A stretch of DNA of 53,114 nucleotides, from the NCBI GenBank assembly GCA_016188005.1, contig JACPIQ010000030.1, positions 1 through 53,114 of the forward strand, in the 5' to 3' direction. The translations under genes and the position numbers were made by a program. Within the stretch, counting starts at the first letter, position 1. Each line of letters begins with the position of its first letter. This document shows positions 11,729-44,686 of the stretch, in pieces. The notes beneath the pieces were generated by a model that saw nothing but the letters and a program-made list of their open reading frames with translations, ran no database searches and had not been told where the DNA came from. Origin of the DNA: Candidatus Rokuibacteriota bacterium. GTDB lineage: Bacteria; Methylomirabilota; Methylomirabilia; Rokubacteriales; CSP1-6.

Positions 11729-11807
11729 GCCGAATGGCCCCGCGTGCGTGCGGGACCACCCTCCTTCGCCTTGCGGAGCTCTCCGGGCCTGTGGGAGAAT
11801 CCGACCC

Positions 11808-12485
11808 ATGGCCACGCTGCGCGCCGTCGACGGCTTCGATTTTCCCGCCATGGCACGGGCCCTCGTCCTCGGCGACAAGGACACCGTGTTCAGGATGACG
11901 CAGGAAGGCTTGGCGCTGGCGCTTCCGCCCACCGACCTCATCTTCCGCGGGCTCATCCCCGGCATGGACGTGGTGGGCGAGAAGTTCCGGCGGAACGAGT
12001 ACTACGTGCCGCAGGTGCTCCTGTCGGCCCGGGCCATGTACGCCGGGCTCGATCTGCTCAAGCCCCTGCTCACGGCCGCAGGGGCGGCGGGCCGGTCGCT
12101 GGGCGTCGTCGTCATCGGCACTGCCCAGGGCGACCTCCACGACATCGGCAAGAACCTGGTGGCGATGATGCTCGAGGGCGCTGGCTTCAAGGTGCACAAC
12201 CTCGGGCGGGACGTGGCGCCGGAGAAGTTCGTGGCGGCGGTGGAGGAGCACGGGGCCCAGATCGTGGGCATCTCGGCGCTCATGACCACCACCATGCCGG
12301 CTATGAAGCGCACCATCGACGCACTCCAGAAGGCCGGGCTCCGCGAGCGCGTCAAGGTCATGGTCGGCGGCGCCCCGGTGACCCAGGCCTACTGCGACGA
12401 GATCGGCGCCGACGGCTACGCCAGGGACTCCACCCTGGCGGTGGCGCGCGCCAAGGCGCTGATGGGCGTCGCGGCGCCCGTGTGA
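11808..12485 (+). CDS. Corrinoid (B12-binding) methyl-carrier protein
   Basis: The 225-residue protein has an N-terminal helical cap (about 1-90) and a cobalamin-binding Rossmann domain with GDLHDIGKNLV. His111 is the expected lower axial ligand to cobalt. The later VGISALMTTTMPAM and VGGAPVTQAY match MtaC/MtbC-type carriers and the B12 module of MetH. It shuttles a methyl group between two methyltransferases. The ATG at 11808 overlaps nothing upstream. Its TGA overlaps by one base the ATG of a homocysteine methyltransferase-type gene, so the two work as a pair. Confidence 0.93.
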   Translation: MATLRAVDGFDFPAMARALVLGDKDTVFRMTQEGLALALPPTDLIFRGLIPGMDVVGEKFRRNEYYVPQVLLSARAMYAGLDLLKPLLTAAGAAGRSLGVVVIGTAQGDLHDIGKNLVAMMLEGAGFKVHNLGRDVAPEKFVAAVEEHGAQIVGISALMTTTMPAMKRTIDALQKAGLRERVKVMVGGAPVTQAYCDEIGADGYARDSTLAVARAKALMGVAAPV

Positions 12486-13408
12486 TGGGCGCCCGGGGGC
12501 GCGGCTGGGAGATCGTCGAGCGCGCGGCGGCCGGGGAGCTCCTGGTCTTCGACGGGGGCTACGGCACGGCGCTCTTCGAGGCGGGGCTCGCCAACGGGGC
12601 CTGCCCCGAGCTCTGGAACGACACCCACGCCGACGTGGTGCGGAGCATCCACGCGGGCTACTTCGCGGCCGGCTCCGACCTCGCCGAGACGAACACCTTC
12701 GGTGGCACCCGGCTCAAGCTCCACGAGTACGGGCTCGGCGACCGCACCCGCGAGCTCAACGAGAAGGGGGCCAGGCTCGCCCGGGCCGCCTGCGCGCCCG
12801 GCGGGTACGTGGCGGGCTCGATGGGACCCACGAGCCGCCTGCCCGCCGAGTACGAGCCGCTGGGCGACACCAGCGACGCGCAGTACGTGGCGACCTTCAC
12901 GGAGCAGGCCGAGGCGCTGGCCGAGGGCGGCGTGGATCTCTTCGCCGTGGAGACCATGATGTTCCCCCAGGAGGCCGTGGCGGCCATCCGGGCCTGCAAG
13001 GCGGCCACCGACCTGCCCGTCATGGCCACCATGTTCTTCCAGTACGAGGAGCTGCACGACCGCGACCGGACCATGTGGGGCGAGAGCCCCGCGGACGTCG
13101 CGCGCAACCTGGTGGCTGCGGGGGCCGACATCGTGGGAATGAACTGCGGGCGCGGTCCGGACCGCGCCGTCGCCATCATCCGCGAGATGCGCGCGACCGT
13201 CCGCGTGCCGCTCGTCGCCTATCCCAACGCCGGCCTGCCGATCACCACGGGAAGCCGCACCACCTACGAGCTCGGCCCCGAGGCGATGGCCAAGGAGTAC
13301 CCCGCGCTGCTCGACGCCGGCTGCACCATCGTCGGCGGCTGCTGCGGCTCTGGCCCCGAGCACATCCGCCTCATTGCCGAGGTCGTCCGCTCCCGCCGCA
13401 AGCGGTGA
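12485..13408 (+). CDS. Homocysteine S-methyltransferase family protein
   Basis: This 307-residue TIM-barrel protein has the zinc cysteines of the family: Cys221 (MNCGRG) and Cys286/Cys287 (GGCCGSG). DGGYGTALFEAG and LAETNTFGGTRLKL are family sections near the N-terminus. Members transfer a methyl group to a thiol such as homocysteine. With the corrinoid protein directly upstream (one-base TGATG overlap) it looks like a split form of the MetH homocysteine and B12 modules. The acceptor could also be another thiol or amine. The start codon is fixed by the overlap. Confidence 0.9.
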   Translation: MGARGRGWEIVERAAAGELLVFDGGYGTALFEAGLANGACPELWNDTHADVVRSIHAGYFAAGSDLAETNTFGGTRLKLHEYGLGDRTRELNEKGARLARAACAPGGYVAGSMGPTSRLPAEYEPLGDTSDAQYVATFTEQAEALAEGGVDLFAVETMMFPQEAVAAIRACKAATDLPVMATMFFQYEELHDRDRTMWGESPADVARNLVAAGADIVGMNCGRGPDRAVAIIREMRATVRVPLVAYPNAGLPITTGSRTTYELGPEAMAKEYPALLDAGCTIVGGCCGSGPEHIRLIAEVVRSRRKR

Positions 13409-15061: not shown

Positions 15062-16906
15062 ATGGCCGCCCCCTTCGCCGCTCGCCTGGCCGAGCGCCCG
15101 CTCCTGGGCGACGGGGCCATGGGCACCATGCTCTACTCGCGCGGCGTGTCGCTGGACGCCTGCTTCGACGTCCTCAACGTCAACGAGCCGAAGCTCGTCC
15201 AGGCCATCCACGCCGAGTACATCGCGGCCGGCGCCGACTGCATCCAGACCAACACCTTCGGCGCCAACCGCTTCAAGCTCGGCATCCATGGGCTCGCCGC
15301 GAGGGTCGGGGAGATCAACCTCCGCGGGGTGAAGCTCGCGCGCGACGTGCGCGAGAGCATGGGGCGCGACGTCTTCGTCCTGGGCTCCGTGGGGCCGCTC
15401 GGCAAGTACCTGGCGCCCCTCGGCGCCGTGGAGCCCGGCGAGGCGGGCGCGGCCTTCCGCGAGCAGGCCGAGGGGCTGCTCGCGGGCGGGGTGGACGGCT
15501 TCGTCGTCGAGACCTTCTCCGATCTGACCGAGCAACGGCTGGCCGTGGAAGCCATCCGCTCCCTTTGCGATCTCCCCATCGTGGCGACGGCGGCCTTCAC
15601 CGACGAGAGCGTGACGTTCCTCGGCCGGAGCCCGCTGGAGGTGGTGCGGGCGCTCCGGGCGCTGGCGGTCGAGGCCGTGGGGGCGAACTGCTCGGTGGGC
15701 TCCAGCGTCCTGTATGACGTCCTCGAGCAGATGCTGCCCGAGGCGGGCGGGCTGCCCGTCGTGATCCAGCCCAACGCGGGCCTGCCGAGCCGCGTCGGCG
15801 AGCGGCTCATGTATCTCTCCTCGCCGGCTTACATGGCCGACTACGCCGCCCGCATGATCGCGGCCGGAGCCCGGATGGTCGGCGGCTGCTGCGGCACCAC
15901 GCCCCAGCACATCCGCGCCATGCGCGAGGCGGTGGACCGCCACGCCCCGGCGCGGGCGGCAGCCCGGGTGGCGCCGTCGGTGGCGCGCGTCGAGGCGGGC
16001 GTGACCGCCGCTCTGGGTCCCGCCGCAGGCCCCACGCGGCTCGCACGCGGGCTCGAGGCGGGGGAGTTCCTCGTCACGGTGGAGCTGGACCCGCCGCGCG
16101 GCCACAACATCGAGAAGCTCGTGCAGGGGGCCAAGCTCCTGAAGGAGCGCGGGGTCGAGATCCTCGACATCAACGACGGCTCCCTCGGGCGCGTGCGCAT
16201 GTCGGTGCTGCCGACGGCGATGCTGGTGCGCGAGGCCACGGGGCTCGACATCAACATGCACTTCACCTGCCGGGACCGGAACCTCATGGGCATCCAGGCC
16301 GATCTCCTCGGCGCGCATGCCATGGACATCCGCAACATCCTGGCCATGACGGGCGATCCGCCGCGCACCGGCGACTACGTCAACGCCACCGCCGTGTTCG
16401 ACGTGGATGCCATCGGTCTCATCCGCATCCTGGCCGGCATGAACCGGGGACTGGACGCCACCGGCACCTCCATCGGCGAGCCCACAGCCTTCTGCGTGGG
16501 CGCGGCGCTGAATCCGGCCGCCGGGGAACCGGGGCGGGAGATGGAGCGCTTCCTCCACAAGGTGGAGGCTGGCGCGCGCTGGGTCCAGACCCAGCCCGTC
16601 TACGATCTCGAGGTGCTCGATCGCTTCTTCGCCGGGACGCCTCCACCGGTGCCGGTGATCGTGGGGGTGCTGCCGCTGCACTCCTGGCGGCACGCGGAAT
16701 TTCTCCACAACGAGGTGCCGGGCATCACCATTCCGCACGGCGCCCGCGCCCGGATGCGCGAGGCCGGGGACCGGGCGCTCCGGGTGGGGATCGCCATGGC
16801 CCAGGAACTGGTGGGCCAGATCCGCCGCCGCTATGCCGGCGCCTACCTCATGCCCTCGTTCGGGCGCTTCGAGGTCGTGGCCGAAGTCCTCGAGGCGCTG
16901 CACTGA
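15062..16906 (+). CDS. Bifunctional homocysteine S-methyltransferase / methylenetetrahydrofolate reductase
   Basis: The 614-residue fusion has an N-terminal S-methyltransferase barrel (about 1-300) with zinc Cys210 (GANCSVG) and Cys276/277 (GGCCGTTPQHI). The C-terminal part (about 325-614) is a methylenetetrahydrofolate reductase barrel (VTVELDPPRGHN, then MTGDPPRTGDY and AGARWVQTQPVYD). The arrangement is that of Bacillus YitJ-type proteins. It makes methyl-THF and can pass methyl groups on to homocysteine. In this cluster it could feed or drain the corrinoid protein at 11808-12485. The ATG is one base after the aroK stop. Confidence 0.94.
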   Translation: MAAPFAARLAERPLLGDGAMGTMLYSRGVSLDACFDVLNVNEPKLVQAIHAEYIAAGADCIQTNTFGANRFKLGIHGLAARVGEINLRGVKLARDVRESMGRDVFVLGSVGPLGKYLAPLGAVEPGEAGAAFREQAEGLLAGGVDGFVVETFSDLTEQRLAVEAIRSLCDLPIVATAAFTDESVTFLGRSPLEVVRALRALAVEAVGANCSVGSSVLYDVLEQMLPEAGGLPVVIQPNAGLPSRVGERLMYLSSPAYMADYAARMIAAGARMVGGCCGTTPQHIRAMREAVDRHAPARAAARVAPSVARVEAGVTAALGPAAGPTRLARGLEAGEFLVTVELDPPRGHNIEKLVQGAKLLKERGVEILDINDGSLGRVRMSVLPTAMLVREATGLDINMHFTCRDRNLMGIQADLLGAHAMDIRNILAMTGDPPRTGDYVNATAVFDVDAIGLIRILAGMNRGLDATGTSIGEPTAFCVGAALNPAAGEPGREMERFLHKVEAGARWVQTQPVYDLEVLDRFFAGTPPPVPVIVGVLPLHSWRHAEFLHNEVPGITIPHGARARMREAGDRALRVGIAMAQELVGQIRRRYAGAYLMPSFGRFEVVAEVLEALH

Positions 16907-19477: not shown

Positions 19478-20017
19478 CTATTCCCAGAGGGGTGCGAGCG
19501 GGATCGCGAGGGCGGCGAAGTCGGGATGAACGAGCGTATCGGCGGGGCCGGCGGCGATGACGAGCCGGTACTCGTCGCCGTCGCGGCGATGGCACTCGAT
19601 GCTCCTGCCCTCGGGGTCCACCAGCCACAGATGCGGGACGCCGAGGGCGGCGTAGCGGCGGGCCTTGATGGTGCGGTCATAGGCCGCGGTGCCGGGCGAG
19701 AGAACCTCGACGACGAGGAGCGGTGGCCCCTCGATGCCGCGGGCGGAAACCTGAGCCGGATCAGCGACCACGACGATGTCGGGCTGGAGCACGTCGTGGG
19801 GCGTGAGGATCACGTCGATGGGGGACACGAAGACCTCGGCCGGGCGCGGGAAGTGCTTCAGCAGGGCCACCAGGAGTCCGGCGACCAGCCGCTGGTGGAT
19901 CGGGCTCGGGGCGGGGGTCACATGCGGCTCCCCGTCGAGCAATTCCCAGCGTCGGCCATCGGCGGGGATGGCGGCGTAATCGTCGTAGTCGAGCCTGCTC
20001 TTGAGCTCGGGCGCCAT
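19478..20017 (-). CDS. Uma2 family (DUF820) PD-(D/E)XK endonuclease-like protein
   Basis: The 179-residue protein has the Uma2 layout: N-terminal YAAIPADGRRWELLDGE, then LQPDIVVV with the Asp, VVEVLSPGT with the Glu, and KARRYAALGVPHLWLVDPE with the Lys. These form the PD-(D/E)XK core. The family is abundant in cyanobacteria, Chloroflexi and similar phyla; its function is mostly unknown. The ATG at 20015-20017 follows GAGGGAGAA. The 157 bp downstream (19321-19477) show no further feature. Confidence 0.87.
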   Translation of the reverse strand: MAPELKSRLDYDDYAAIPADGRRWELLDGEPHVTPAPSPIHQRLVAGLLVALLKHFPRPAEVFVSPIDVILTPHDVLQPDIVVVADPAQVSARGIEGPPLLVVEVLSPGTAAYDRTIKARRYAALGVPHLWLVDPEGRSIECHRRDGDEYRLVIAAGPADTLVHPDFAALAIPLAPLWE

Positions 20018-20038
20018 GGCGTTCTCCCTCTCGCGGGC

Positions 20039-20044
20039 ATTATA
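20039..20044 (-). promoter_or_regulatory. TATAAT -10 box before the Uma2 gene
   Basis: A perfect TATAAT reads on the minus strand 21 bp before the ATG, in the middle of an inverted repeat GCGGGC-ATTATA-GCCCGT. The -35 position at 17 bp is GC-rich and not recognisable. Confidence 0.45.
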
Positions 20045-20118
20045 GCCCGTGTACCGCGCCCCCGGCCCCCGGCTCAAGAGTGCAGGAAACGATACAGCCT
20101 GAAGGCGCCCCGGATCCC

Positions 20119-21963
20119 TCAGCCCAGGAGGCGCTCGTAGCGCCCGTAGGCGTGGGCAGCGTCCATGAACCAGCGCACGATCTCCGGGCTCGAGCGGGGC
20201 GGGATCTCGCACGACGTCGAGAGGATGAAGCCCGAGCGGCGGGCCGCCGTGTCGACGCAGCGCCGCACCTCGGCCTCGATCTCCTCACGGGTCGCCCGCT
20301 CGAACTTCGTCGCGTCCACGTTGCCGATGGCCACGGTGCGCCCGCGCGCGACCTCCATGAAGCGGTCGAGCTGGTCCACGTGGAGCGCCGGGTCAGCCTG
20401 CTGGTCCAGGTCGAAGGACACCGTGGTGAAGCCGCAGCCGATCAGGTCCTCGAAGATGGGGTAGGTGGTGCCGCAGATGTGGGTGGTGAGACCCACCTTC
20501 CGGGCCTTGAAGTGCTCCACGAGCTCCCTGTGGTAGGGGGCGATGAACTCGCGGTAATTGTCAGGCGAGATGAGGCTCACGGACGCGGTGGGTTCGGAGA
20601 AGCTGAGCCCGATCTTCGTCTTGGCGATGGCCTCGCCCCAGGTCTTGCAGAAGTCCGTGGTGATCCGCATGAGGGCGTGGATGAACGCGGGGTCCTCGAA
20701 GGTGTCCAGGAGCATGGTCTCGGGGTTGCGGAGCAGCATGGCGATGGTCCACGGGCCGACGGCCACCGCGCCCATGGCCGCCGGCGGGCCTGCCTTGACC
20801 AGGGCCTCGCATTGCTCGAGGAAGCCGGGGAGCCTGGCCGTTCCGTACGGGTCCGGCATCGTGAGCCGCGCCAGGTCGGCCTTGTCCTCGAGCGGGTGCG
20901 TCTCCACCGAGGGGACCACGTACTCCGAGTACTTGACCCGGCAACCGAAGGCCTCGGCCTCCTTCGCCAGGTCGTTGTAGGCGAGCACGACGTCTGGCTG
21001 GTACCGCTCGTAGTAGTTCAGCATCGCCTTGATGGCGCGCGACGGGTTGGTGCAGTACTCCTCGATGCTGAGCCCGTCGAGCGTGCCGGCGAAGGACGCG
21101 ACGATGGGGTACACCGGCACCCGATCGGCGAAGGAGCGCTTGTACGCCGCCACCACGCGGTCGCGGTTGGTGAGCGGGGCCTGGCCCTTGTCCGCCTCCC
21201 AGAGGCGGTTCACCTCCATGTAGCGCCCCGGGAGCTTGGCCTCGTACTCCATGAACTGGGTGATCGGGTAGCGGATGCCGCCGGCGTGGGTGCCGCGCAG
21301 CCCCTCGACGATCTCCTCCATGCGGTCCCACGGGATGGTAAAGGCCATCTCGTGGTCCTGGGTCTGGCCGAAGATGCGGTCGCCGGAGCAGGGGAGGATG
21401 ACCTGGGGCTCCCCGGTCTTCATGGTGGTGACGATGATGTCGGCGCAAACCGCACGGCACTCGAAGGACGAGGGGAGCCGGCCGCCGCGCTTCCACAGCG
21501 CGGCCTGCGTCAGACGCATGACCTGTGCCGGGTTGCCGTACACGCATACCAGGTGGGGCTCGAACGCCGCGCGGTCCAGCGGGGCGACGAGCAAGGCGGC
21601 GTACTCGCCCGGCGCGAACTTGTCCACGGCCGCCTCGGAGCGCTGCCCGGCCTCCTTCGTTTCCGTGTACATGCCCTCGCAGAGGGTCCCCACGTTGTAG
21701 ATGGGGAGGGGCTTGTCGAAGCCCGCGGCGATGATGCCCAGGGAGCAGATCGAGTCGTCCCGCGTGAGAGCGATGGTCCAGCCATAGCGGCGGGCCATGT
21801 CGATCACCTGGCAATTCATGCTGAGCTTCTTGAAGTCGCGCGCTGGCCGCTTCGCGCGCTCGGGGATGGGCTCGCCGGGCCCGAGCATGCGGATGGCGAC
21901 GGGGAATGTCTGCGGTCGGATGTAGGTGGCGAGCTCCCGGTCCGCCGTCTTGGCGTCGATCAT
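20119..21963 (-). CDS. DUF169 domain fused to an MtaA/CmuA-type (URO-D fold) methyltransferase
   Basis: The 614-residue protein has two parts. Residues 1 to about 250 match DUF169 (COG2043): FPVAIRML, CQVIDMARRYGWTIAL, DDSICSLGIIAAGF, with Cys at 51, 73, 95, 140, 169, 173 and 192. From about 263 (LTNRDRVVAAYK...DRVPVYP) it is a URO-D-fold domain. It carries the zinc set of corrinoid methyltransferases, His495-x-Cys497 (THICG) and Cys585 (SCEIPP), which true uroporphyrinogen decarboxylases lack. I infer a methyl transfer role with a corrinoid partner such as the protein at 11808-12485. The DUF169 part may bind a metal or cofactor; its function is unknown. The ATG at 21963 sits 7 nt after a -10 box. 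Confidence 0.85.
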   Translation of the reverse strand: MIDAKTADRELATYIRPQTFPVAIRMLGPGEPIPERAKRPARDFKKLSMNCQVIDMARRYGWTIALTRDDSICSLGIIAAGFDKPLPIYNVGTLCEGMYTETKEAGQRSEAAVDKFAPGEYAALLVAPLDRAAFEPHLVCVYGNPAQVMRLTQAALWKRGGRLPSSFECRAVCADIIVTTMKTGEPQVILPCSGDRIFGQTQDHEMAFTIPWDRMEEIVEGLRGTHAGGIRYPITQFMEYEAKLPGRYMEVNRLWEADKGQAPLTNRDRVVAAYKRSFADRVPVYPIVASFAGTLDGLSIEEYCTNPSRAIKAMLNYYERYQPDVVLAYNDLAKEAEAFGCRVKYSEYVVPSVETHPLEDKADLARLTMPDPYGTARLPGFLEQCEALVKAGPPAAMGAVAVGPWTIAMLLRNPETMLLDTFEDPAFIHALMRITTDFCKTWGEAIAKTKIGLSFSEPTASVSLISPDNYREFIAPYHRELVEHFKARKVGLTTHICGTTYPIFEDLIGCGFTTVSFDLDQQADPALHVDQLDRFMEVARGRTVAIGNVDATKFERATREEIEAEVRRCVDTAARRSGFILSTSCEIPPRSSPEIVRWFMDAAHAYGRYERLLG

Positions 21964-41111: not shown

Positions 41112-43478
41112 ATGAAACGGGTCCCCCTCTTCTGGAGCGTGGGTATCGTCCTGCTCGTCGTGTGGGCGACGCTCGCCTGGGTGCTTCCCTACGCGGCCAT
41201 GTGGCTGACGGGCCGCGACCGGTCCCTGCCTGTTCCCGGCGCCGTCTTCGCCATCTACCTCATCCTCGCCCTCGTCGGGGCGGCGGTCTATGTCACCATC
41301 AGCGACGAGTCCATCCGTGAGTTCCTGCGCCCCCCGCTCGCCTTCCTGCGGGGCCCGCGTACCGGCACGCGCCGGGGGACCGGGCTCCGGACGGGACGGC
41401 TCGCCGTCCTCCTGCTGATCCCGCTGGCGGCGGGCGGCGTCGTGTACGCTCGGGCACTGCCGCGGGTGCAGAGTCCCACGAGTCTCAGGATCCAGCACCC
41501 CACCATCCCGGGCGCCTACGAGCGGCTCAGGAATCCATTCCGCGAGCCCACCGACGCGGCGGTGCAGAAGTGGATGGCCGAGACGAAACGCGCTGGCAGC
41601 CTCGACGAGGGGCGCCGCGCCTACACCGAGGCTGCCCTCCTCGACGGGCGCGTGATCTTCCAGATCAACTGCCGGCCCTGCCACGGGGATGCGGCCGACG
41701 GACAGGGGCCGATGGCCTGGGGCTTCAGGCTCAAGCCCGCCAACTTCACCGACCCGGGAATGATCGCCACCGTCGTCGAGCCCTACGCCTTCTGGCGCGT
41801 CACCGAGGGTGGGCCCGGGCTGCCGCCCTCGGGAAGCCCGTGGGACTCGGCCATGCCGATCTGGAAGCAGGACCTGAGCGACGAGGAGAAGTGGAAAGCG
41901 GTCCTGGCGGCCTATGACCTGGCCGGGGTCGAGCCGAGAAAGCCAGAGAAGCTGCACTCATCGCTGTTCGTGGGGCGCGCCGAGGCCCAGGCCGCGCCTC
42001 CCTCGGAGACCCCGGAGCGCCTGGCCCGCGGGAAGGCGGTCTACGTCAAGCGCTGCCTCGCCTGCCACGGGGAGAAGGGCGACGGCAAGGGGCCAGTGGC
42101 GCCCTATCTCGAGCCGCGCCCGCGGGACTTCGTGGCGGCGTCCTTCAAGCTTCGCACGACCGAGTCGGGTGAGCCGCCCACTGACGAGGATCTCTTCCGC
42201 GTGGTGACGCGCGGCGTGCCGGGCACTGCCATGGCGGGCTGGACGACACTGTCCGAGCAGGAGCGATGGCTCGTGATCGGCTACATCAAGACGTTCAGTG
42301 ACGTGTTCACCGAGAAGCGGACCCTCGTCAAGCCGGCGAGGGAGATCGCCCCCTCTGCGGAGCTCCTCGCCAAGGGGAAGGAGGTCTACAGGCGCGCCAA
42401 GTGCTGGGAGTGTCACGGCCAGGAGGGGCGCGGCGACGGCGAGGCCGCTCCCAAACTCAAGGATGACGCGGGAGACCGCATCCTCGCCGCCGACCTCACC
42501 AAGGGCTGGCGGATCAAGGGTGGGCGGGAGGCCCGGGACATCTTCATGCGCTTCTCGACCGGCCTCGACGGAACGCCCATGCCCTCCTTCGCGGACTCGC
42601 TCGGGGAGGAGGACCGCTGGGCGCTGGCCCACTACGTCAAGTCGCTCCAGACTGTCGAAGAGCCGGGCGATCCGGTGGTGCTCCGGGCCACGCGGCTGGC
42701 CGGGCCCCTGCCTGGCGACCCCGACGACGCGCGGTGGGCGAAGGCCCCCTTCCTCGCCGTCCCGCTGGCCGGCCAGGTGCTGGCCAGGCCGCGCTGGCAG
42801 AACCACTCGGTGGATGCCGTCACCGTGCGCGCCTCCTACAACGACACGGCCATCGCGTTTCTCTTCGAGTGGAACGACCGCTCCAGGGACACCGAGCACC
42901 AGCCCGGGCCGGAGCCCGAACTGAAGGAGGCCACCTACCCCCTGCGTGATCTGACGCCCGGGCTCCGCGAGAAGCTCCGCGACGCGATCCGCCTCCAGCT
43001 CCCTGTCGCGATCCCCGTCGGTCCCGAGCGGCCCCACTTCTTCCTCGGGAGCCCGGGCAAGCCCGTGTCCCTCTGGCACTGGCAGGCCGACCTCGATGCG
43101 GCCGGCAAGCCCGCGGTGGTGAAGGAGTGGGCTGAGGGCTTCCAGAAGCCCGTTCGGGCCCAGACCGACGCCGCCCAGGACGTGACGGGCAAGGGCGTGT
43201 GGAAGGACGGGCGCTGGAAGGTCGTGATGACCCGGCCGCTCGTGCCGAGGGAGCGCGGCCGCGACGTCACCTTCGAGCCGGGCCGGCTCATCCCCTTCGC
43301 CATCCACGCCTGGGACGGGGCCAACGGCGAGCGGGGTTTCATGATGGCGCTCTCGTCCTGGACCTACGTCGTGCTGGAGTCCCCCGTCTCGGCCTGGGCC
43401 TACCTGTCCTCCCTGCTGGCCGTCTGCGTCGTCGGGCTCGTGGAGTGGTGGCTGATCCGCCGCGTCCGCCGGAGCTAG
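41112..43478 (+). CDS. Triheme cytochrome c fused to an ethylbenzene-dehydrogenase-type heme-binding domain
   Basis: The 788-residue protein has N-terminal helices (about 6-28, 43-63, 97-113), three heme c sites CRPCH (187-191), CLACH (315-319) and CWECH (431-435), and then an EB_dh-type domain (about 500-760; DDARWAKAPFLAVPLAG, ...TVRASYNDTAIAFLFEWND) that binds a b-type heme in NarI-like and EBDH gamma subunits. A last helix (AYLSSLLAVCVVGLVEWWLI) anchors the C-terminus. I infer an electron conduit for the adjacent oxidase or for an unknown periplasmic donor. Confidence 0.9.
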   Translation: MKRVPLFWSVGIVLLVVWATLAWVLPYAAMWLTGRDRSLPVPGAVFAIYLILALVGAAVYVTISDESIREFLRPPLAFLRGPRTGTRRGTGLRTGRLAVLLLIPLAAGGVVYARALPRVQSPTSLRIQHPTIPGAYERLRNPFREPTDAAVQKWMAETKRAGSLDEGRRAYTEAALLDGRVIFQINCRPCHGDAADGQGPMAWGFRLKPANFTDPGMIATVVEPYAFWRVTEGGPGLPPSGSPWDSAMPIWKQDLSDEEKWKAVLAAYDLAGVEPRKPEKLHSSLFVGRAEAQAAPPSETPERLARGKAVYVKRCLACHGEKGDGKGPVAPYLEPRPRDFVAASFKLRTTESGEPPTDEDLFRVVTRGVPGTAMAGWTTLSEQERWLVIGYIKTFSDVFTEKRTLVKPAREIAPSAELLAKGKEVYRRAKCWECHGQEGRGDGEAAPKLKDDAGDRILAADLTKGWRIKGGREARDIFMRFSTGLDGTPMPSFADSLGEEDRWALAHYVKSLQTVEEPGDPVVLRATRLAGPLPGDPDDARWAKAPFLAVPLAGQVLARPRWQNHSVDAVTVRASYNDTAIAFLFEWNDRSRDTEHQPGPEPELKEATYPLRDLTPGLREKLRDAIRLQLPVAIPVGPERPHFFLGSPGKPVSLWHWQADLDAAGKPAVVKEWAEGFQKPVRAQTDAAQDVTGKGVWKDGRWKVVMTRPLVPRERGRDVTFEPGRLIPFAIHAWDGANGERGFMMALSSWTYVVLESPVSAWAYLSSLLAVCVVGLVEWWLIRRVRRS

Positions 43479-43500: not shown

Positions 43501-43914
43501 GTGATCGCCACGCGCGAAGCCCGGTTCAAGCAGGCGGCCTGGTGCTACCTGGCCTACGGTGTCGCCTACTGGCTCGGCGGCGTGTATCTCGCCGCCCACG
43601 GGATCGGAGGTGGCCGCGGGCTCGTCTGGGTCGCGCTGGGCCTCGTCTTCGTGGCCCTCTTCCCGTGGCTCATCGCCCGTGGCTCGCGAGGGCGGGGCTT
43701 CCTCTGGTTCGTCCGGGTGCTGAGCGTGGCCGTGCTCTTGCGGGCGATCCTCGTGGCGCGCACCGTCGTTGAGCCCCGCCTGCCCTCGGTCCCGCTGCCC
43801 GGTGGCGGCGTCTTGCCCATGCGCGTGGCCGCCACGCTCTTTCTCGTCATCACCCTGGCCACGGCCGCCATGCTGGCACGCGCGGCCTGGAGCCGCCGCT
43901 CGTCGGTGTTATGA
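43501..43914 (+). CDS. Small polytopic membrane protein
   Basis: The 137-residue protein has about four hydrophobic segments (YLAYGVAYWLGGVYLAA, LVWVALGLVFVALFPWLI, LWFVRVLSVAVLLRAILV, LFLVITLATAAMLARAAW). I do not recognise a family. It starts with GTG at 43501 after AGGAGGGA. It lies 22 bp behind the triheme gene and 13 bp before the PCP-repeat gene, so it belongs to the same operon and may be an assembly or accessory subunit. Confidence 0.75.
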   Translation: MIATREARFKQAAWCYLAYGVAYWLGGVYLAAHGIGGGRGLVWVALGLVFVALFPWLIARGSRGRGFLWFVRVLSVAVLLRAILVARTVVEPRLPSVPLPGGGVLPMRVAATLFLVITLATAAMLARAAWSRRSSVL

Positions 43915-43927
43915 TCGGCACGGAGCC

Positions 43928-44686
43928 ATGACTGAGATCGTGTGGACCGACGAGGCTCGGCGCCGGGTGGACAGGGCGCCGCCCTTCATCCGGCCCGGCA
44001 TCCTCAAGCTGATGCCGATCCGCGCCAGGGAGCGGGGGCGCACCGTGATCACCTCGGACTTCCTCACCGAGATCCGGAACGAATCCATGCTCCGGGTGGC
44101 CAAGTGCATCAAGGGCTTCGGCTTCGAGGAATTGTCCATGGCGGCCTTCGAGGTGGCCAAGGCCAAGATGCGCAAGCTCCCGCACAAGGTCGAGGTGATC
44201 GGGGAGATCGAGGCGTTTCTCGACACCCGTGTCGAGAAGAACGAGATGATCCTGGCCAAGTTCAGACGCTATCTCCAGACAATCCCGGAGCGAGGGCTGC
44301 CGTGGACCGAGGAGGCGCTGGCCCGGGTGCAGCGGGCGCCAGCCTTCGTCCAGGGGATCGCGCGGACCGCCATCGAGGAGGAGGCGCGGCGCCGAAAGGA
44401 GCCGGTCGTGACCCCGGAGGCGGTGGAGCACGTGATGGGCCTCGTGCCCATGGCCGAGGCGCCAGCGCCGACGGACGAGCCGCGGTCGGCCGAGCCACTT
44501 CACGGCGTGACCATGCTCTGGGAGGCGGCGGCCGAGGAGCGGCTCCGGCGCATCCCGATCCCCGCCGTGCGGGCCGGGGTGATCCGGAAGGTCGAGGCTC
44601 ACGCCCGCGCCCAGGGGCTCGGCGTGGTGGACCTCGCGGCCTACGGCGCGGCCATCGCGGGGGGACTCCCTCGGCTCTCAGCCTGA
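43928..44686 (+). CDS. Protein with three PCP-reductase-type repeats
   Basis: The 252-residue protein has three related helical repeats at about 6-50 (WTDEARRRVDRAPPFIRPGI...), 126-170 (WTEEALARVQRAPAFVQGIAR...) and 198-243 (WEAAAEERLRRIPIPAVRAGV...). Each has Trp, Glu/Ala-rich helix, P-x-F/V-R and a closing VTxxxxxxx helix. The pattern matches the domain found at the C-terminus of light-independent protochlorophyllide reductase subunit B (PF08369). No chlorophyll genes are near, so the role is not photosynthetic. It closes the oxidase operon. It may act in protein-protein contact or cofactor handling; this is inference. Confidence 0.78.
   Translation: MTEIVWTDEARRRVDRAPPFIRPGILKLMPIRARERGRTVITSDFLTEIRNESMLRVAKCIKGFGFEELSMAAFEVAKAKMRKLPHKVEVIGEIEAFLDTRVEKNEMILAKFRRYLQTIPERGLPWTEEALARVQRAPAFVQGIARTAIEEEARRRKEPVVTPEAVEHVMGLVPMAEAPAPTDEPRSAEPLHGVTMLWEAAAEERLRRIPIPAVRAGVIRKVEAHARAQGLGVVDLAAYGAAIAGGLPRLSA

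Follow-up and report, generated by a model that had tools for sequence, protein, structure and literature searches.

The closest described relatives of the enzyme examined here are the corrinoid:coenzyme M methyltransferases MtaA, MtbA and MtsA (PDB 4ay7, TIGR01463), which have in common with it the UroD fold and the HxC...C ligand set. In type 1 mlp clusters, the genes for bacterial UroD methyltransferases are accompanied by those for a corrinoid protein and for a reductive activase, and a return of the methyl group to methionine has been proposed for these clusters (PMC10418091). The MtgC/MtgD system of Ruegeria uses a corrinoid protein for both glycine betaine demethylation and methionine synthesis, in aerobes (PMC12478193). 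Finally, the core methionine synthase MesD depends on a partner, MesX, that is itself a domain without known function (DUF1852; PMC7857596). Zinc use is not general to UroD-fold methyltransferases, as CdmB functions without zinc (PMC13222342).

We describe a gene of a Candidatus Rokuibacteriota bacterium, lying in a stretch of 53,114 nucleotides (hereafter the window), whose product joins a DUF169 domain to such a UroD-fold domain. Unlike MtaA, MtbA and MtsA, among which lies its best structure match, this protein carries DUF169, reaches only 123.5 of the 235.4 bits set as the curated cut-off of TIGR01463 (MtaA/CmuA), and is found in a host that is not a methanogen. The nearest published logic is that of type 1 mlp clusters and of MtgC/MtgD. 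However, mlp clusters are compact, contain several UroD genes and belong to obligate anaerobes, whereas here there is one fused gene, kilobases from a corrinoid operon: the corrinoid gene lies at a distance of 7.6 kb and on the opposite strand, and the RACo gene (254 bits) is on a separate contig (C121). The dual corrinoid role known from MtgC/MtgD resembles the one that we propose below, but the donor-side enzyme would here be a UroD-fold protein with DUF169. The likeness to MesD/MesX concerns zinc methyl transfer and folate-independent methionine synthesis, although MesD is a MetE relative and DUF169 is absent there. As for DUF169 proteins themselves (PF02596, COG2043), the N-terminal half of the fusion clearly belongs to this family and has its core cysteines, while the other members were found standalone or fused to ferredoxin, never to UroD.

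The fusion gene occupies positions 20119-21963 on the minus strand and encodes 614 amino acids. The two-domain architecture proposed by the initial annotation is confirmed by Pfam profile searches, as both the DUF169 domain (residues 11-221, 21301-21933, minus strand; PF02596, 193.7 bits for a gathering cut-off of 27) and the URO-D-fold domain (residues 265-606, 20146-21171, minus strand; PF01208, 211.3 versus 23.9 bits, covering profile positions 1-346 of 346) pass their cut-offs. The open frame reaches 22335 upstream; the start is the ATG at 21963, as homologues begin with the same methionine. AlphaFold models gave a pTM of 0.63 and a mean pLDDT of 87 for the whole protein, and a pTM of 0.79 and a mean pLDDT of 79 for DUF169 by itself. 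On the same strand, an ORF at 19478-20212, the coding part of which is Uma2-like by eye, overlaps the 3' end of the fusion; no match to it was found among the related loci clustered.

Rokubacteria, which are uncultured, are common inhabitants of soil and groundwater. The fusion is present at full or nearly full length in about 53 of the 95 Methylomirabilota genomes, with 56-95% identity across its length, and several more copies, interrupted by contig ends, stand outside this count. Carriers fall nearly all within the Rokubacteria family, the named loci being mostly Candidatus Rokubacteria MAGs. With so many genomes holding the fusion in a single frame at such identity, chance or frameshift is far from sufficient to explain it. 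In the DUF169 tree, the fusion copies and two standalone copies (in genomes G011 and G019) form one fully supported Methylomirabilota clade, and this topology fits a single fusion event in the Rokubacteria family, followed by later separation. The two standalone copies are close ones (58-59% identical), and neither genome has a UroD orthologue. We also observed an 84% identical fusion in a contig titled as an Alicyclobacillus MAG (L041); this contig probably comes from Rokubacteria and was wrongly labelled or binned.

The zinc set reported for the UroD half by the initial annotation stands: H495 and C497 (20473-20481, minus strand), as well as C585 (20209-20211, minus strand), are invariant in all 29 fused proteins and all nine UroD-only proteins aligned, and the H-I-C of the fusion aligns with the H-I-C of MtaA (PDB 4ay7). 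This MtaA structure is the closest solved one by sequence (phmmer, 2.6e-16) and by fold, ahead of every HemE structure (Foldseek E 7e-23; TM 0.87 by target length). The assignment to the MtaA/CmuA type holds in part only: ligands and fold agree with it, but the TIGR01463 score lies under the cut-off, so that the UroD half is MtaA/CmuA-like and not filed as a member. From fold and ligands, we regard this half as probably a zinc methyltransferase. HemE was considered and rejected, the TIGR01464 score being 43.5 bits for a cut-off of 302.95; as a true HemE is encoded elsewhere in the genome (G000:C117, 438 bits), the UroD half is not the decarboxylase. A UroD-only paralogue, 64-68% identical, is nested among the fused proteins in a quick tree (support 99), and no DUF169 remnant was found upstream of such paralogues. 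This paralogue often adjoins a luciferase-like monooxygenase gene (e.g., L186, 7283-9348; L091, 9005-10042).

The DUF169 half contains seven cysteines (positions 51, 73, 95, 140, 169, 173, and 192), as first counted, but this number overstates the site, because position 169 is a cysteine in only two of the 29 fused proteins and C140 varies. C95 is nearly invariant among close relatives, and only C51 (21811-21813), C73 (21745-21747), C173 (21445-21447), and C192 (21388-21390, all minus strand) are fully so, being present in 29/29 fused and 13/13 close DUF169-only proteins. Among 30 diverse DUF169 members, C51 and C73 are each retained in 29 (one distant paralogue lacks both), C173 in 27 (it is missing at the aligned column in three), and C192 in 26 (glycine replaces it in four). 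We found no PDB relative of DUF169 by sequence (E up to 10) or by structure (E ≤ 0.001). An internal duplication opposing a C51/C73 half to a C173/C192 half was also considered and discarded, as the profile comparison gave a probability of 0.0, under that of shuffled controls. That the domain lacks a known function, as stated initially, is borne out by the open literature searched, in which we found neither a published function nor a functional study for it (PF02596, COG2043). We infer from the conserved cysteines, and from redox associations seen elsewhere, that the chances of DUF169 binding a metal cluster are about even; such a module on C51, C73, C173, and C192 would most likely be an Fe-S one.

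Outside the fusion, DUF169 was detected in 79 of 299 Bacillota genomes (frames of at most 348 aa) and 24 of 294 Planctomycetota genomes (frames of at most 388 aa), and was not found in phages. The survey of DUF169 neighbours and fusions suggested by the initial annotation thus has two sides: the UroD fusion is kept in Methylomirabilota, but not one was found in these Bacillota and Planctomycetota genomes or in the plasmids searched. Bacillota provide a clue to DUF169 that is independent of UroD, since the domain is fused there to a C-terminal 2[4Fe-4S] ferredoxin in several loci (L168, L131, L135, L139, and L132). In the first of these, the DUF169-ferredoxin gene shares an operon with CCG + Fer4 (HdrD-like), DUF2064, molybdopterin oxidoreductase, Fer4, and NrfD genes. 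Associations of DUF169 outside the UroD fusion are redox ones (ferredoxin fusion; HdrD-like and molybdopterin-oxidoreductase neighbours); other copies adjoin pyruvate kinase, PYC_OADA, and MinC genes. Both halves are able to exist alone, given the standalone DUF169 copies in Bacillota, Planctomycetota and two Methylomirabilota genomes, and the UroD-only paralogue. The initial claim that the fusion reveals the substrate or cofactor of DUF169 is accordingly weak, as DUF169 is common without a UroD partner and the UroD-only paralogue is nested among fused proteins. That annotation had also named two observations that would speak against it: separate, unlinked homologues do exist, while loss of the zinc ligands was never seen in aligned homologues.

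The corrinoid protein that had been noticed in the window is indeed there, at 11748-12485 on the plus strand (B12-binding_2 and B12-binding domains, by Pfam), and is a candidate partner of the fusion. Its gene is overlapped by one for a homocysteine S-methyltransferase (12482-13408, plus strand; PF02574, 243.7 bits), and this pair is kept in relatives, often with a third, Met_synt_B12-like gene downstream. Resemblance of the third gene to the methionine-synthase activation domain is weak to moderate, one of the two tested scoring above cut-off. We saw no gene for folate binding in the 11748-13408 operon, and the pair resembles a methionine synthase that is split and independent of folate. The same region includes a homocysteine S-methyltransferase fused to MTHFR (15062-16906, plus strand). 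Further along, a protein with three PCP_red stretches (protochlorophyllide reductase 57 kD subunit type) is encoded at 43769-44686 on the plus strand; its region also contains a gene resembling that of cytochrome bd subunit I and, at 41112-43478, a multi-domain gene of cytochrome c and ethylbenzene-dehydrogenase type.

Most neighbouring genes run on the other strand from the fusion gene, which stands by itself and shares no operon with the corrinoid gene. These neighbours are mixed, and include genes for malic enzyme, acetyl-CoA synthetases, an RNA-binding protein, an amidase, an amidohydrolase, and the homocysteine methyltransferase/MTHFR. A corrinoid orthologue (66-95% identity) is nevertheless encoded in almost every fusion-bearing genome. 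Among the 53 genomes with both the fusion and a close orthologue, the two genes are on one contig in 38, at distances of 2.6-20 kb (median 12 kb), and are split between contigs in the other 15. In family f7 (genomes G018 and G016), they are 5 kb apart despite most other neighbours being different. Families lacking the fusion (f6 and f10) have only weak corrinoid matches, mostly MetH-sized frames, and one genome (G003) has a corrinoid orthologue with no fusion detected. In another genome, with standalone DUF169 (G019:C72, L221, 1145-6975), a RACo-corrinoid-UroD-UroD-homocysteine methyltransferase operon shows that UroD enzymes and such corrinoid/homocysteine pairs co-occur in Methylomirabilota. 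The UroD and corrinoid gene pairs at C92 and C86, in the genome to which the window belongs, are further precedents from this phylum for a corrinoid link.

Our preferred explanation, to which we attach a probability of roughly 0.4, is that of a two-part enzyme in which a zinc UroD methyltransferase serves the corrinoid/homocysteine operon, assisted by DUF169 as a metal or Fe-S module. This enzyme would be cytoplasmic. Zinc held by H495, C497, and C585 would activate a thiol or bind the methylated substrate, and the methyl group would move, via the UroD half, between this substrate, as donor, and the corrinoid protein. The latter would pass it to homocysteine through its operon partner, yielding methionine without a folate-binding domain, while DUF169 may supply a redox or substrate-holding function beside the active site. 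On co-location and co-occurrence, we put the chances that the partner is the corrinoid protein of the window itself a little short of even. This support is weakened by shared ancestry, co-location within the Rokubacteria family being partly general synteny. In addition, other corrinoid partners are conceivable, because the genome also encodes a full-length MetH (G000:C68, frame of 1157 aa) and two further UroD and corrinoid gene pairs (C92 and C86).

The UroD half could be a zinc methyltransferase whose partner is either free cobalamin or a corrinoid protein from another locus, its closeness to the operon reflecting inherited gene order only. The opposite strands of fusion and operon, the unrelated genes between them, and the similar order kept by the malic enzyme, amidase, and amidohydrolase genes of the region all fit this explanation, as do the further corrinoid proteins of the genome. 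However, each of the latter already adjoins a UroD gene of its own, the closeness of fusion and corrinoid gene in family f7 outlasts most other neighbours, and fusion presence tracks the corrinoid orthologue across families, so that we consider a partner from elsewhere rather unlikely. Another reading would be that the UroD half is another zinc enzyme of the fold (a lyase or decarboxylase), with DUF169 as its substrate-binding part. Scores under every curated methyltransferase cut-off, a weaker Foldseek match of the same fold to ApcE of acetophenone carboxylase, and the frequent luciferase-like oxidoreductase neighbour of the UroD-only paralogue point that way, but MtaA is the closest structure and the HxC...C set is invariant, which makes such an enzyme improbable.

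The role of DUF169 can also be read differently. The conserved cysteines, ferredoxin fusions, and HdrD-like and molybdopterin-oxidoreductase neighbours suggest electron transfer, and DUF169 might then be a reductive activator of the corrinoid protein, that is, a fused replacement for RACo/RamA rescuing inactive Co(II). We think this very improbable: the genome already has a RACo, relatives carry the Met_synt_B12-like gene in their corrinoid operon, and in Planctomycetota genomes that carry DUF169, a close UroD orthologue is absent and the DUF169 gene lies amid unrelated conserved genes. Finally, within the two-part enzyme that we prefer, DUF169 might be an Fe-S module that acts chemically on an unusual methylated substrate, preparing or opening it for the fused zinc methyltransferase, which would feed folate-independent methionine synthesis; we hold this out as a long shot.

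The fusion, which is old and retained by almost every relative, does not by itself reveal the role of DUF169, but it makes this role testable. About one in four of the Bacillota genomes sampled carry the domain, as do methanogens (M. jannaschii, M. acetivorans); in one lineage, the fusion links DUF169 to an enzyme whose chemistry lends itself to assays with purified components. The fusion further suggests that Rokubacteria have a corrinoid methionine route independent of folate binding. If DUF169 did open the substrate as an Fe-S module, this would be the first function for DUF169, parallel to that of MesX for MesD, and a new one-carbon entry point in a widespread uncultured phylum.
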